From Chloroflexota bacterium (GTDB taxonomy: Bacteria; Chloroflexota; Dehalococcoidia; SHYB01), in the NCBI GenBank assembly GCA_016875535.1, contig VGPF01000006.1:1-64000 (forward strand): DNA of 64,000 nucleotides, given 5' to 3'. The position numbers and the translations under genes were made by a program. The notes beneath the pieces are model-generated. The model did no database searches. It was not told where the DNA came from and saw only the letters and a list, made by a program, of their open reading frames with translations. Shown piece after piece: positions 3,960 through 10,094 of this stretch (positions are counted from its first letter, which is position 1; each line of letters starts with the position of its first letter).

Positions 3960-6149
3960 ATGTCCAACGCGCAGGCACAGTTCAAGCGGCGGCTCGCCAA
4001 GGCCCTCGCCTCGCCCACCCTGGAGCTCGCCCTGAATAGGGCGATGCCCATGCGGCGCAAGTCCCGCGCCGCCGCCTTCGCGCAGGACGACTTCGCCGCC
4101 CTGCGCGACGACCTCCAGCGGCGCAAGCGCGCCGCCATCGAGCACCTGCCGGAACTGCTGGCGCAGTTCACGGAGAACGCCGCCAAGGCGGGCGCCACCG
4201 TTTACCTGGCGCAGAGCATCGAGGACGCTCAACGCATCGTCGGCGACCTGGTGAAGCGGCAAAACGTGAAGCTGGCCGTCAAGAGCAAGTCCCTGGCGAC
4301 GGAAGAGATATCCCTGAACGAGTACCTGGAAGAGCGTCACGTGAAGGTGGTGGAGACGGACCTGGGCGAATGGATCGTCCAGCTGGCGGGGGAGAAGCCT
4401 TCCCACCTCATCACACCGGCCATGCACAAGACCCGGGAAGAGGTGGCGGAGCTCTTCAGCAAGGTCACCGGCAAAAAGATACCGCCGGACATCCCCAAGA
4501 TGGTGGCCGTGGCGCGCAAGATGCTGCGGCAGTCCTTCATAGAGGCCGATATGGGCATCACCGGCGCGAACGTCGCCATCGCGGAGACGGGGAGCCTGGT
4601 CATCGTCAGCAACGAAGGCAACGGGCGCCTGGTCTCCACCCTGCCGCCGGTCCACGTCGCCATCCTGGGCATAGAAAAGATCGTCGCCACCATGGAAGAT
4701 GCCCTGGCGGCACTGAAGGTCCTCTCCAAGAGCGGCACCGGCCAGCGGCTCACCACCTACATCTCCTACATCACCGGCCCCAGCCGCACGGCGGATATCG
4801 AGCTTTCGCTCACCACAGGCGTCCACGGCCCCAAGGAAGTCCACATCGTCCTCCTGGACAACGGCCGCACCACCATGCGCAACCGCCCCGAGTACCGTGA
4901 CGCCCTGGACTGCATCCGCTGCGGCGCATGCCTCAACGCCTGCCCGCCCTTCCAGGCCGTCGGCGGGCACGCCTTCGGCTATAAGTATCCCGGGCCCATC
5001 GGCCTTATCCTCACGGCCTTCCACCACGGCTACGAAAATGCCCAAGGGCCGCAGACCCTCTGCCTAGGCTGCAACGCCTGCCAGACGGCCTGCCCGGCCA
5101 ACATCGAGCTGCCGCGCATGATTCTGGATCTGCGCCAGGAGATGTTCGATGGCGAAAGCATCGGCATGCTGAAGGGCAACGCCCTCAACTTCCTCACTTA
5201 CCAAAGGGAAGGCAAGTGGCTCGGCCTAGCGAAGGTGGCGCAAAGGGCCTTCTCCAAAGGCGAAGGGCTGGTCAGCATCCCCGGCGTCACCGGCTGGCGC
5301 TACCTGCCCAAGCTGCCCGATAAGACCTTCCTGGAGAGGCGCGGCTTGGGCGCGAAGTCCAAGGCGACGTCTCTCGTGCGATCCCAGGCGGCGGGGCAGA
5401 GCGTCCTCTATTTCCCCGGCTGCATCACGGACAACCTCTTCCCCGCGATGGGCGATTCCGCCGTCGAAGCCCTCAACGGCCTAGGGGCCGAGGTCTCGAT
5501 CCCGCGCAAGGCCCAGTGCTGCGGCCTGGCGCATATGAACTCCGGCGATCGCGCAACGGCCAAGCGCCTGGCCAAAGAGACCATCGCGATGCTGGAGCAA
5601 GAGACGGCACAGCACATCGTCTGCACCTCGGCAAGCTGCGTGGTGGCCATGACGCAGGACTACCCGCACCTCCTGCGCGATGAGCCCGAGTGGGCGGAGC
5701 GCGCCAAGCGGCTGGCCGGGCGCATCAAGGACTTCACCTCGTTCGTGGACGGCGTGGCAAAGGTGAGCCCCGGCGCGCTGGCCAAGGGTGAAAGCGGCAC
5801 GGTGACCTACCATGACTCGTGCCAGTCCACCAACTGCCTCAAGCTGGGCAAAGAGCAGCGGCGCATCATCCAGGGCGTCGTGGGCGCGGAGCTCAAGGAG
5901 ATGGAAGAGTCCAGCCAGTGCTGCGGCTTCGGCGGGACCTTCTCTATAGACTATCCCGATATCTCAAAGCGCATCTTGAAGCATAAGCTGGACCACATCG
6001 GCGAGACGGGCGCGGAGACGGTGGTGACGGACAACCCCGGCTGCATCATGCAGCTGCGCGGCGGGCTGGAGGCGGCAGGGAAGAAGACGCGCGTTCTGCA
6101 CATCGCGGAGCTGATGGCGGAACAGATGAAAAATCACAGAAAAAGGTAA
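3960..6149 (+). CDS. LutB/LutA-like fusion: LUD domain, 2x[4Fe-4S], CCG domains
   Basis: This is a 729-residue three-part protein. Residues about 60-300 form an LUD domain as in LutB/LutC (GSLVIVSNEGNGRL). Two ferredoxin-type clusters follow: CIRCGACLNACPP near 317 and CLGCNACQTACPANIELPR near 368. The C-terminal third carries two cysteine-rich CCG domains (QCCGLAHMNSGD near 519, QCCGFGGTFSIDYP near 653) of the GlpC/HdrB/LutA kind. LutA and LutB, normally separate, thus appear fused. By family it is an oxidoreductase passing electrons from a 2-hydroxyacid such as lactate or glycolate to a quinone or another acceptor. No LutC follows; the next gene, 4 nt on, is a cysteine hydrolase. Confidence 0.85.
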   Translation: MSNAQAQFKRRLAKALASPTLELALNRAMPMRRKSRAAAFAQDDFAALRDDLQRRKRAAIEHLPELLAQFTENAAKAGATVYLAQSIEDAQRIVGDLVKRQNVKLAVKSKSLATEEISLNEYLEERHVKVVETDLGEWIVQLAGEKPSHLITPAMHKTREEVAELFSKVTGKKIPPDIPKMVAVARKMLRQSFIEADMGITGANVAIAETGSLVIVSNEGNGRLVSTLPPVHVAILGIEKIVATMEDALAALKVLSKSGTGQRLTTYISYITGPSRTADIELSLTTGVHGPKEVHIVLLDNGRTTMRNRPEYRDALDCIRCGACLNACPPFQAVGGHAFGYKYPGPIGLILTAFHHGYENAQGPQTLCLGCNACQTACPANIELPRMILDLRQEMFDGESIGMLKGNALNFLTYQREGKWLGLAKVAQRAFSKGEGLVSIPGVTGWRYLPKLPDKTFLERRGLGAKSKATSLVRSQAAGQSVLYFPGCITDNLFPAMGDSAVEALNGLGAEVSIPRKAQCCGLAHMNSGDRATAKRLAKETIAMLEQETAQHIVCTSASCVVAMTQDYPHLLRDEPEWAERAKRLAGRIKDFTSFVDGVAKVSPGALAKGESGTVTYHDSCQSTNCLKLGKEQRRIIQGVVGAELKEMEESSQCCGFGGTFSIDYPDISKRILKHKLDHIGETGAETVVTDNPGCIMQLRGGLEAAGKKTRVLHIAELMAEQMKNHRKR

Positions 6150-6153
6150 CGCC

Positions 6154-6720
6154 ATGCCGCACCCGCACCTCTCATCGGCGCAATCGTCCATCCTCGTCGT
6201 CGTGGACATCCAGGAACCCTTCGCCAAGGCCATGGCCGACCGCGCGGCGCTGGTGAAGAACACCACCACCCTCATCCACGTCGCCAAGGCCGCCGGGCTG
6301 CCCACCATCGTCACGGAGCAGAACCCGGAGAAGCTGGGCCCTACGGTCCCCGAGATCAAGAAGTCCCTGCAGGACGTGGGAGCCTACGCGCCGCTGCCCA
6401 AGATGGCCTTTAGCTGCTGCGCCGCCGATGGCTTTGTGAAGCGCGTCTACGATACCGGGCGCGATACCCTCGTCATCACCGGGATGGAGGGGCACGTCTG
6501 CGTCCAGCAGACCACGCTGGAGGCGCTGAACCTGGGCTATAAGGTCCACGTGGTGCAGGACGCCGTCACCTCCCGGCGGCGGGAGGACTATGCCGCCGCC
6601 ATCGAGAAGATGCGCCACGCCGGGGCCATCATCACCACCACGGAGATGGCGGCCTACGAGTGGCTCGGCACGGCGGGGACGCCCGAGTTCAAAGCGGCGA
6701 TGCAGTGGCTGAAGTGGTAG
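6154..6720 (+). CDS. Isochorismatase-family cysteine hydrolase
   Basis: This 188-residue protein has the compact isochorismatase/nicotinamidase fold. The likely catalytic triad is visible: Asp18 in VVVDIQ, Lys83 in PLPKMAFSC and the nucleophile Cys116 in GMEGHVCVQQT. The cis-peptide motif is also present. It is a cytoplasmic hydrolase of amide or ester bonds with substrate unknown. It starts 4 nt after the LUD/Fe-S gene and is surely co-transcribed, so both may serve one catabolic step. It faces the DUF3052 gene tail to tail. Confidence 0.85.
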   Translation: MPHPHLSSAQSSILVVVDIQEPFAKAMADRAALVKNTTTLIHVAKAAGLPTIVTEQNPEKLGPTVPEIKKSLQDVGAYAPLPKMAFSCCAADGFVKRVYDTGRDTLVITGMEGHVCVQQTTLEALNLGYKVHVVQDAVTSRRREDYAAAIEKMRHAGAIITTTEMAAYEWLGTAGTPEFKAAMQWLKW

Positions 6721-6748: not shown

Positions 6749-7153
6749 CTACCTATCCTTGAGCCGGTTCACCAGCTTTAGGCCCGACCAAACGTCGTCC
6801 ACGGCGGCCACCTTTACGTCAACCAGCCTAATCTTGAGCGCCAACTCCCGGACGATGTTCTCATTGAGGTCCGTCGGCACCTTAGATGCGCCCTTTGGCC
6901 AGGAGACCCAGATCATGCCGTTGGCCACCAAGGAGGCGCGCATCCCCGGCAGGGCCTTCTCCAAGTCAGCCTTGGACTTGGTAAAGAAATGGATGAAGTC
7001 CATGTTGGGGGCCAGCTTGGCGGAACGTTTCACCCCCGGCGGCAGAGGGCCAAGCGTCCTTTCGTAGCCCTCCGGCGCATTGAGGATGCACAAGCTGTGC
7101 CCCGGCTTGATGCCGAGCTTATCCACAAGCGGGCGCTTGGAGTAGCCGGCCAT
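6749..7153 (-). CDS. DUF3052-family protein
   Basis: This 134-residue protein shows the DUF3052 pattern: an N-terminal GYSKRPLVDKLGIKPG, then LCILNAPEGYERTLGPLP and IHFFTKSKADLEKALP, and a mid-protein GMIWVSWPKGASK. The domain is a small Rossmann-like or methyltransferase-like fold of unknown function. Its ATG lies 2 nt after the TAA of the 352-residue gene upstream. It is therefore translationally coupled as the last gene of the UGSC selenoprotein trio. I do not know this domain as a usual UGSC partner, so a shared function is inference from operon structure only. Confidence 0.75.
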   Translation of the reverse strand: MAGYSKRPLVDKLGIKPGHSLCILNAPEGYERTLGPLPPGVKRSAKLAPNMDFIHFFTKSKADLEKALPGMRASLVANGMIWVSWPKGASKVPTDLNENIVRELALKIRLVDVKVAAVDDVWSGLKLVNRLKDR

Positions 7154-7155
7154 AC

Positions 7156-8214
7156 TTAGCCCGGTATCGCCCGGGTGACGGCGTTGCCCTCCGCAAAGGG
7201 GAAGCAGGCCATGGCGTGCAGGCCGCCCAGGCCGCCGCCCACCAGGATGATGAACTGGTCAGGACGCGCCGCCAGCGGCACCTCGCCATTGACCATGCGC
7301 TTGCGCTCCTCCATCCATGGAAAGAGGACCGGCGGGAAATAGCTCAGCGGGATGTGCGACGTCACTTCCAGCAGGTACTCCTTGGCATCCTGGACGGACC
7401 AGCCGTCCCGGGAAACGATCCAGGCGAAGTCCGGGCAGAGGACCAGGATGATCTCCCCTGAGCCCGGATAGCCCAGGACCTTGTTACTGGCCGGGATGCA
7501 GAGGGAGTGGCCCAGGACTTTCAGCAGGTCCTTGGCCGATTTGCAGTTCACGTCTTGGATGTTCGTCGGCCCTTGGGAGCCGTAAACGGTGACGCAGCTT
7601 TGCTCCAGCTTGAAGCCGCGCTGCACATGGAAGGGCGGCCAGGGGCTCTTCTCCTCCCATTCGCCGATGCAGGCGGTGATACGCCCCGGCTGGCCCATGG
7701 TGGACTTGCTGACGATCCCTTCGATGGAGCCGCCGATATTGCGCATCACCAGGCGCACCGCCCGCCCGATGGTGGCGTTGGCGCGGAAGTTCCCCCCGCC
7801 GAAGAGCGAATAGCCGCAGTTGACGGCCAACTGGTTGCGCACGGGGCCGTTCAGGATAAGCATCGGCGCGACGCTGCTGGTGGTGGTGTTCACTGCGTAG
7901 AGGTTGAACTTGGGGTCGGAGCAGGCCTCGATAGCCGTGACGATGGTGGGCATGTACTCCGGCCTGGCCCCTGCCATGACGGCGTTGATGGCGATCTTCT
8001 CGATGGTGGCAGGGGCGTTGTTTGGCGGGATGGGCGCGACGACGTCCTGAGCGCCGCGCTTGGATGCGGCGATCATGCGCTCCACCCGCTCGCGCGTCGG
8101 CGGGATGACGGGCAGGCCGTCTATCCAGCCCTGGTCGGAGGCGTAGTCATAGAAGGCGTCAATGTCGTCGTTCTGCAGCGTGTGCGTCTTGGCGGTGATG
8201 TTGGCGTCCGGCAT
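7156..8214 (-). CDS. Conserved protein adjacent to UGSC selenoprotein, function unknown
   Basis: This is a 352-residue soluble protein without signal peptide or membrane segments. Recognisable blocks are DQGWIDGLPVIPPTRERV near residue 30, IEKIAINAVMAGARPEYMP near 72, SVAPMLILNGPV near 115, NCGYSLFGGGNFRANATIGR near 130 and EEKSPWPPFHVQRGF near 187. I recall homologues with these blocks as uncharacterised proteins often found beside UGSC-family genes; this recollection is unverified. It begins 21 nt after the UGSC stop and ends 2 nt before DUF3052. The conserved Cys in NCGY could be redox-active or a ligand. A role as partner or substrate-binding subunit for the selenoprotein is plausible but unproven. 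Confidence 0.7.
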   Translation of the reverse strand: MPDANITAKTHTLQNDDIDAFYDYASDQGWIDGLPVIPPTRERVERMIAASKRGAQDVVAPIPPNNAPATIEKIAINAVMAGARPEYMPTIVTAIEACSDPKFNLYAVNTTTSSVAPMLILNGPVRNQLAVNCGYSLFGGGNFRANATIGRAVRLVMRNIGGSIEGIVSKSTMGQPGRITACIGEWEEKSPWPPFHVQRGFKLEQSCVTVYGSQGPTNIQDVNCKSAKDLLKVLGHSLCIPASNKVLGYPGSGEIILVLCPDFAWIVSRDGWSVQDAKEYLLEVTSHIPLSYFPPVLFPWMEERKRMVNGEVPLAARPDQFIILVGGGLGGLHAMACFPFAEGNAVTRAIPG

Positions 8215-8235
8215 GGTGCGTTCGGTAGCTCGTCG

Positions 8236-8778
8236 CTACGCTTTCTTTTCGGTCAGCGCCCCGGCCACTTCGTTGAACTTCTCCCTGGCGAGTTTCAAAA
8301 TCTCCTCTTTCGGCAGCGGCTCAAAGGGGTGCGGCAGGACCACCATGGGGATGTTGGGCCGGTTGCGGGCGCGCAGGAGGCTCTGCGCCAGCTTCACGAA
8401 TTCGCTGGTGACGATGAGGACGGTGGGCTTGCCTTGATCGGCGACGGTAATCGTGTCGTGGACACTCCACGCGGTGCAGGAGCCTCAGGCAGCCAGGCCG
8501 ACGATGACGGCATCCACCTCCGAGGCGAACTCCTTGAGCTTCCGCGTATCCTCCAGGTTAGTGGCGGTGGTGCGGCTGGTGGGGTGGTAATGCCTCACAT
8601 CGCGCACTTCAAAATCGCTCCGGATGTGCTTGTCTACTTCCTCGCACCAGATATCGAAGTTCTTCCAGTCAACGCGGAAGCCGACCTTTTTCCCGTGGAG
8701 GCTCTCGAGCTTGTTGAGCTTGATGCCCTTCACTTCGGGCATGACGCCCGTGGGGTCCAGGATGACCAGTTGGCCCAT
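8236..8778 (-). CDS. UGSC-family selenoprotein with in-frame TGA (Sec98)
   Basis: The frame opens at the ATG at 8778 (GGGAGGT 5 nt upstream) and meets a TGA at codon 98. It continues in the same frame to a TAG at 8236-8238, giving 180 residues if TGA is selenocysteine. Residues around it read VDAVIVGLAA-U-GSC-TAWSVHD, the signature naming the UGSC family. The distal part (TITVADQGKPTVLIV, then VVLPHPFEPLPKEEI) is coherent and family-like, so this is not a truncated gene. A SECIS-like hairpin follows the TGA. The N-terminus (MGQLVILDPTGV) also matches the family. The U-G-S-C pair suggests a redox or nucleophilic centre; the substrate is unknown. A minus-strand TACAAT at 8807-8802 may be the -10. 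Confidence 0.88.
8457..8487 (-). promoter_or_regulatory. Bacterial SECIS-like element after the UGA
   Basis: Reading the minus strand from the TGA (8487-8485), a 6-bp perfect stem CGUGGA/UCCACG (8471-8466 with 8462-8457) closes a GUG triloop (8465-8463). The apical loop begins 20 nt after the UGA and starts with G. As I recall the bacterial SECIS consensus, it needs a short loop about 16-37 nt from UGA with a G in the first two loop positions, and this fits. SelB binding is inferred. Confidence 0.65.
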
Positions 8779-8843: not shown

Positions 8844-9944
8844 CTACTTCTGCCCCAGGCCGTAGACCTTTGCGGCCGTCTCCCGGGTGAGCTTGCGCAC
8901 CGTCACGGGGTCCAGCTTATGCAGCATCTCGTCCACCGCCTTGCGCGAGTGGGGGAAGGTGCTGTCCACGTGCGGGTAATCGGAGGCCCACATCACGTTG
9001 TCCGCGCCGATATCGCTCAGGAGCTTGATGCCCACCTCGTCCTCTTGGAAGGTGGCGTAGATCTGGCGCTTGAAGATCTGCCGCGGCGGCGTCTTGAGCG
9101 CCCAGTTCCTCACAATGGTGGCGTACTTCACAAACTCCATGTCCAGGCGGTTGAGGACATAGGGGATCCAGCCCAGGCCGGATTCGCCAAGAATGAACTT
9201 GAGCTTGGGATGGCGCTCCAGCACGCCGGAAAAGACGATGGAGACCAGGACTTCGTCCAGCTGCATAGGCGAGACCGCCGCAAAGGCCGCCACCGTCCAC
9301 TCACCGGGCGTCGCCTTGATGGAATGGCAGCCGCCGCCTAAGTGGACGTTGAGGGCGATGCCCGTCTCCTCCGCGGCCTGCCACAGCGGCTCCCACGCCG
9401 GGTCAATGATGGAGCGCTGGGTGTGGAAGAAGCTAGCGACGACGCCCTTATGGCCCAGCTTCGCCACGCGGCGCACCTCTGCCGCGGCGGCCTCGGGCGT
9501 CTGCATGGGCAGGTAGGCCAGGAGACAGAGGCGGTCCGGGCTGGCGGCATTGAACTCGGCCGCAAAGTCGTTATAGGCGATCCAGCAGGCGCCCGTCAGC
9601 TCCGGGTCCTTGATTCTTATACCAGTGACGGGGCCGTAAATGACGGAGGCGTAGATGCCGTCCGCATCCATGTCCTGCAGTCGCAGGCGCGGCGTCGAGG
9701 GCCGCATGGGGCCTTCAGGGAGCCCTGCGCGCTGGACGGCGTTGGGGTGCGGCGGGTTGGGGATAAAGCCGCTCTGTCCCATCGTCTCGCCATCGGCCTG
9801 CCACAAGTCGCCTTGGGGCGTCTTGACCACCTTGGGGGCGCGAGCCTTCCACTTGGAGGACAAGCGCTCCTCAAACATCTTGGGCGGGATGGCCCAGATA
9901 TCCAGGTGGTCATCTGCAGAGACGATCTTGTAATCAACCGGCAT
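8844..9944 (-). CDS. Amidohydrolase family protein (Amidohydro_2)
   Basis: This 366-residue TIM-barrel hydrolase starts at the ATG at 9944 (GAGGAG 8 nt upstream; frame open 26 codons further). Motifs are SADDHLDIW at the N-terminus, ALNVHLGGG mid-protein with a metal-ligand His, LGESGLGWIPYVLNRLD, and ASDYPHVDSTFPHS near the end with the conserved metal-binding Asp. This is the ACMSD-like hydrolase/decarboxylase group. It is transcribed away from another amidohydrolase at 10095. A minus-strand TATAAT at 9999-9994 may drive it. Substrate is unknown; aromatic or dicarboxylate compounds are typical of the family. Confidence 0.85.
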   Translation of the reverse strand: MPVDYKIVSADDHLDIWAIPPKMFEERLSSKWKARAPKVVKTPQGDLWQADGETMGQSGFIPNPPHPNAVQRAGLPEGPMRPSTPRLRLQDMDADGIYASVIYGPVTGIRIKDPELTGACWIAYNDFAAEFNAASPDRLCLLAYLPMQTPEAAAAEVRRVAKLGHKGVVASFFHTQRSIIDPAWEPLWQAAEETGIALNVHLGGGCHSIKATPGEWTVAAFAAVSPMQLDEVLVSIVFSGVLERHPKLKFILGESGLGWIPYVLNRLDMEFVKYATIVRNWALKTPPRQIFKRQIYATFQEDEVGIKLLSDIGADNVMWASDYPHVDSTFPHSRKAVDEMLHKLDPVTVRKLTRETAAKVYGLGQK

Positions 9945-10094
9945 GGCCTGCTCCTCAAGCACAGGGCCATAGCTCCGCCCTTGCGCTGGGCTGATTATAC
10001 GAGCCGCATCGTAGAAATACATGCCCGTAGATGACGCGGGTACCGCCGGGCGGCGCTCGTGCTAGGATGCGGCATCCGCTAGAGGAGGTGGGGC

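Follow-up and report, generated by a model that had tools for sequence, protein, structure and literature searches.

Our analysis shows that a UGSC selenoprotein and a 352-aa protein of an unnamed family (P352) form a conserved unit of two genes, not three, and the two products very probably constitute a two-subunit catabolic selenoenzyme in which P352 is the near-obligate partner. The stretch of DNA analysed, referred to here as the window, comprises 64,000 nt of a Chloroflexota genome (contig VGPF01000006.1). UGSC (8236-8778), P352 (7156-8214) and a DUF3052-like gene encoding 134 aa (6749-7153) follow each other on its minus strand. An earlier note had described these three genes as a tightly packed operon, and both their coordinates and their spacing hold, with gaps of 21 nt (8235-8215) and 2 nt (7155-7154).

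The UGSC gene encodes 180 aa, from an ATG at 8778 to a TAG at 8238-8236. Its sole in-frame TGA (8487-8485) corresponds to residue 98 and gives the motif Sec98-Gly-Ser-Cys101. The protein matches PF24696 over residues 6-176 (E 1.1e-33), the alignment running through the TGA, and its score of 117.3 bits (model positions 2-171 of 172) clears the Pfam gathering score of 25 bits. Against the equivalog model NF041046 it scores 94.9 bits (E 4.5e-27), under the curated cut-off of 125 bits, and is a divergent member. The columns of Sec/Cys98, Gly99, Cys101 and Asp108 are nearly invariant in an alignment of 51 relatives. The source genome (2.5 Mb) encodes SelB (334 bits, cut-off 242) and carries a tRNA-Sec (66 bits). 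With a TGA at the Sec/Cys column, conservation beyond it and both SelB and tRNA-Sec at hand, the gene qualifies as a predicted selenoprotein gene, in line with the selenocysteine centre that had been proposed earlier. A bacterial SECIS element would be expected directly 3' of the TGA (8440-8484, minus strand). Across 144 Sec genes of the family, the 45 nt after the TGA gave a mean folding z of -1.01 (s.e. 0.09) against synonymous resampling, compared to only -0.24 to +0.08 at six other offsets in the same genes; at the level of the family, the folding signal sits where a bacterial SECIS belongs, and the window gene by itself gives no signal (z -0.3 to -0.8). The TAG of UGSC and the ATG of P352 lie in one frame, so that a single stop-codon change would fuse the two genes, and natural UGSC/P352 fusions occur in other genomes.

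Among 100 related genomes, 34 possess both families and 64 neither, one has UGSC alone and one P352 alone (Fisher p 2e-24), each of the two latter cases resting on a borderline score. The copy numbers of the two families correlate with r 0.97 (32 genomes). A scan of a genome collection yielded more than 560 P352 loci, 80 of which were retained, and at 62 of these a UGSC gene of the same strand lies no more than 700 nt away. In a set of 108 UGSC/P352 pairs, which includes a few duplicates, UGSC comes first in 38 and P352 in 39, and the remaining 31 are fused (29 with UGSC first, two with P352 first); the distance matrices of the partners in these 108 pairs give a Mantel r of 0.88, where 1000 permutations reach at most 0.10. 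P352 also adjoins UGSC in 16 of 16 UGSC-bearing plasmid records of cultured organisms (Paracoccus, Acidovorax, Variovorax, Roseovarius, Arthrobacter, Embleya and haloarchaea), and the NCBI label for P352 on plasmids is 'hypothetical protein'. Neighbouring or fused UGSC and P352 genes span many phyla of bacteria and archaea, and their adjacency is far above chance. P352 without UGSC beside it is present in Poribacteria, some Desulfobacterales and locus L223, whose solitary P352 is the nearest family relative of that in the window (66% identity). Thus, the proposed selenocysteine centre with a dedicated partner is supported by co-occurrence, adjacency and fusion, copy number and co-divergence in many phyla of both bacteria and archaea, and the generality of this partner beyond one fusion appears to be new. 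The co-occurrence count that the earlier note had suggested for all three families came out positive for UGSC and P352 and negative for the DUF3052-like gene.

This third gene is probably co-transcribed with UGSC and P352 in the window, and the tight spacing speaks for a system of three functional components. Such a system is nevertheless most improbable: the DUF3052-like gene occurs in 22 of the 100 related genomes, and P352 is found in 10 of these 22 and in 25 of the 78 genomes that lack it (Fisher p 0.31); the gene is missing from genomes of the same genus and family; its nearest homologues (62%, 59% and 50%) reside in genomes without UGSC/P352, beside unrelated AMP-binding/CoA-transferase or miaB/nadA-like genes; and a phmmer search of the 108 other loci returned no DUF3052-like homologue. 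The adjacency is not conserved, and the gene is a local passenger outside the conserved system. The name 'DUF3052' likewise does not stand, as the window protein matches PF11253 below threshold, with 18.8 bits (E 0.0016) and a gathering score of 22.7.

None of the Pfam and NCBIfam models matches the window P352 or any of 50 relatives. Invariant residues in the family alignment are D32-G33-P35, N77, G150-R151, N159 and E185, and the conserved Arg, Asp, Glu and Asn residues suggest that a carboxylate may be bound. The AF2 model of P352 alone has a pLDDT of 92.3 and a pTM of 0.91. A relationship to fumarase was considered and rejected: the first 23 rows of a Foldseek search are class I fumarases (E 4.9e-5), at a TM score of only about 0.25, VIA gives Z 4.7 at 5.8 A for a class I fumarase, and hhalign against 15 Fumerase proteins gives P 0.21. 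Similarly, P352 was rejected as a GrdE/PrdA protein, because PF09338 matches neither P352 nor its 50 relatives and the family alignment has no invariant Cys able to form a pyruvoyl group. When the window UGSC and P352 were modelled as a joined chain, with the TAG read as Gln and Sec as Cys, a pLDDT of 93.1 and a pTM of 0.92 were obtained; this pTM indicates confident relative placement of the two parts, and the model implies a defined interface between them. In a direct-coupling analysis of 246 pairs, aimed at locating this interface, inter-protein pairs are not enriched; they account for 26 of the 120 top scores, as compared to 47% expected by number.

Structural modeling of UGSC suggests a doubly wound parallel alpha/beta domain, with flavodoxin-like and Rossmann-like proteins as best structural neighbours and no thioredoxin fold among the listed VIA and Foldseek matches. 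UGSC is therefore predicted to be a flavodoxin/Rossmann-like domain, unlike the thioredoxin-like fold suggested in 2008. For both families, neither single proteins nor profiles yielded a significant match when the PDB was searched by sequence. In hhalign comparisons, the UGSC profile aligns Sec on Sec with full-length GRDB proteins (P 4.8e-7) and with PrdB-like proteins (P 4.6e-5), using comparison sets kept clear of UGSC sequences; the best of 27 unrelated control families reached P 4.8e-4, and P352 was unrelated. The window UGSC has no Pfam match to PF07355 (GRDB), the similarity being one between profiles; this remote homology of UGSC to the Sec domain of GrdB/PrdB appears to be new. Many stand-alone PrdB-like proteins, corresponding to the C-terminal part of PF07355, were observed at loci L150-L173 in relatives without full GrdB.

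The gene 65 nt upstream of UGSC (8844-10022, minus strand) encodes an amidohydrolase-2 protein (PF04909, E 3.8e-27); its reading frame opens at 10022 and 9947 is the likely, albeit uncertain, start, and it is possible that it constitutes the first gene of the UGSC transcription unit. Amidohydrolase-2 genes flank three UGSC/P352 loci of the source genome (window, L109 and L110) and some elsewhere. The idea that the system acts on a compound also handled by these amidohydrolases thus retains some support, but many other types of enzymes and transporters flank the pair as well. Uptake receptors adjoining UGSC/P352 belong to the SBP_bac_5, TctC and TRAP/TAXI types, and adjoining catabolic genes encode amidohydrolases, cyclases, CoA transferases, dehydrogenases, TauD and glycyl-radical enzymes. 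The window also contains an LdhH-like gene for the large subunit of an L-lactate dehydrogenase (quinone) at 3960-6149 (787 bits, NCBIfam cut-off 800), which is followed by a gene for an isochorismatase-family hydrolase (6154-6720, plus strand). A gene of the thioredoxin-reductase family is located at five plasmid UGSC/P352 loci, all with Cys forms: in Arthrobacter ERGS1:01 the order is trxB-trxA-P352-UGSC, a full trxB lies beside the pair in Roseovarius THAF8 and Variovorax SRS16, and the TrxB-like genes of V. boronicumulans and Haloterrigena reach 159 and 231 bits against TIGR01292, under its cut-off. No trxB was found near the pair at 80 loci from chromosomes or MAGs, most of which have the Sec form. 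The Arthrobacter UGSC (L296:8021-8836) carries a C-terminal CSDC extension that is NifU-like in appearance. Plasmids of Sporomusa (L299:6323-8047) and Vibrio (L304:5413-7098) encode UGSC-P352 fusions with a degenerate MGTS motif devoid of Sec and Cys, adjoining aconitase X and DUF126 genes; these fusions are possibly a non-redox offshoot.

We consider it an even chance that UGSC-P352 carries out a reductive bond cleavage of the GrdB/PrdB type. We infer each chemical step, the class of substrate and the electron donor. In the proposed cycle, P352 would bind a small organic acid or amide and activate it, and UGSC would supply the Sec98-Cys101 pair; on the model of D-proline and glycine reductase, the Sec98 selenolate might then attack the carbon bearing the leaving group (amine, oxygen, sulfur or halide) to form a selenoether. 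Cys101 would resolve this selenoether, a step that has been proposed for D-proline reductase (PMC10298544), to a selenenyl-sulfide and the freed reduced product, and the Se-S bond would finally be reduced by a thioredoxin-type dithiol. The earlier suggestion of an undescribed redox or bond-cleaving system is better grounded by the profile homology to the Sec domain of GrdB/PrdB and by the thioredoxin-reductase neighbours. Points that count against a two-subunit enzyme of this kind are the missing PF07355 match of UGSC, a P352 that shows no relation to GrdE/PrdA, trxB genes that lie beside plasmid-borne Cys forms and were not found at the 80 mostly Sec-containing loci, the many apparently aerobic hosts, solitary P352 genes and UGSC domains of the MGTS type.

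Two other functions have to be weighed against reductive cleavage. UGSC might be a thioredoxin-like thiol-disulfide oxidoreductase that has P352 as redox partner or acts on it as a protein substrate. The ocean survey of 2008 put forward such a role for UGSC and suggested a Trx-like fold (PMC2398784), and the UxxC motif and the TrxB neighbours in some operons would be in accord with it. We regard this as improbable, since the UGSC model is flavodoxin/Rossmann-like with no thioredoxin among the matches listed, and some 150 paralogues in a single genome, many of them beside a solute receptor, would be a poor fit for a general redox protein. A catabolic enzyme with a nucleophilic Sec or Cys that acts non-reductively, as a racemase, lyase, hydrolase or in thiol transfer, with P352 binding the substrate, would suit the surrounding catabolic and uptake genes in hosts that appear to be aerobic, the putative carboxylate-binding residues of P352 and its weak Foldseek similarity to class I fumarase; however, the near-strict UxxC pair and the TrxB/TrxA neighbours suit a reductive cycle better, and P352 displays no profile similarity to fumarase, so that a non-reductive enzyme is unlikely, though less so than an oxidoreductase of the thioredoxin type. 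Linked in this way with thioredoxin reductase, with the Sec domain of GrdB/PrdB and with a partner that is nearly constant, UGSC acquires a concrete type of reaction that can be tested, for which Sulfitobacter noctilucae, Arthrobacter ERGS1:01, Roseovarius THAF8, Variovorax SRS16 and several haloarchaea are available as isolates.

The family is strongly amplified in G031 (JACPQD01), a groundwater Chloroflexi MAG of the same class as the source genome, which encodes SelB and has at least 150 UGSC domains (of 208 candidates 150 were scored, and all 150 match) and at least 150 P352 matches; as this 5-Mb MAG is 96% complete with 7% contamination, the copy number carries that caveat. Of the 150 UGSC domains, 143 have one in-frame TGA, three have two and four have none, leaving 146 with TGA. 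A 745-kb portion contains 114 distinct UGSC domains, 109 of them with exactly one TGA, and in the first 380 kb all 49 UGSC have one; 35 of these 49 are single-chain P352 fusions, and no pair is more than 80% identical. SBP_bac_5 receptors account for 40 of 65 immediate neighbours scanned in G031, and arrays of an SBP_bac_5 lipoprotein and a UGSC-P352 fusion were observed at L201-L220 and L272-L291. According to a review, the largest bacterial selenoproteome reported comprises 63 selenoprotein genes, the earlier record being 57 (PMC13188914). Thus, the TGA-bearing UGSC domains of G031, at least 146, would more than double this number and would run counter to the notion that its cost keeps Sec rare. 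The amplification in Chloroflexota appears to be new. We tentatively put forward that UGSC-P352 may represent a class of two-component selenoenzymes in its own right, hugely diversified, that reductively cleaves carbon-heteroatom bonds of numerous natural organic compounds and serves as a nutritional mainstay of some uncultured Chloroflexota, with about 150 paralogues in one genome, many with their own ABC solute-binding receptor.

A second mode of organisation was found in which a tRNA-Sec gene is located directly upstream of P352-UGSC, as in Sulfitobacter noctilucae NB-68 (L106), another Sulfitobacter locus (L088), Henriciella (L105) and L103. In L106, L088 and L105, genes read from their sequence as selA and selB precede the tRNA, resulting in a selA-selB-tRNASec-P352-UGSC cassette that extends over L106:3030-8617 in NB-68. 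TAXI-TRAP genes are located upstream of the cassette in the two Sulfitobacter loci, and the gene downstream of it in Henriciella looks like an Ndh-SelD fusion. On Paracoccus megaplasmids, selB or a tRNA-Sec gene lies no more than about 8 kb from UGSC/P352. Together with the folding signal 3' of the TGA, these loci speak for genuine use of Sec in the family. The cassette organisation appears to be new, and the portable cassette would provide a clean example of Sec being gained for a single enzyme.

The UGSC family and a fusion of UGSC with a domain termed Unknown_1, which may be P352, were described in 2008 in the GOS selenoproteome (PMC2398784), and UGSC belongs to the selenoproteins met most often when ocean and fresh water were surveyed, with 255 sequences in the GOS set. 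The portions of the UGSC literature that were covered report no function, no amplification in Chloroflexota and no homology to GrdB/PrdB. In comparison to the known systems, UGSC and GrdB/PrdB (PF07355) share the U-G-[ST]-[CST]-T Sec motif, and the next helix, the GIPxxx strand and the PHPxG region align; in both cases a second subunit is present alongside. UGSC differs from GrdB in its size of about 170 aa and in lacking the N-terminal half of GrdB, and its partner is neither GrdE/PrdA-like nor an evident pyruvoyl precursor. Glycine and proline reductases are dithiol-driven (PMC10298544), and many UGSC/P352 hosts are apparently aerobes, unlike the classical users of these reductases. A further parallel comes from Cloacibacillus, where an operon with proteins of the GrdB type has been linked to breaking the C-F bond of fluoroacetate (PMC10838667). 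The families involved are different, and no radical-SAM gene was noted at the UGSC/P352 loci examined; however, in a manner similar to that proposed for UGSC-P352, these proteins would there have been recruited to break a bond between carbon and a heteroatom other than nitrogen, a transporter gene being present as well.
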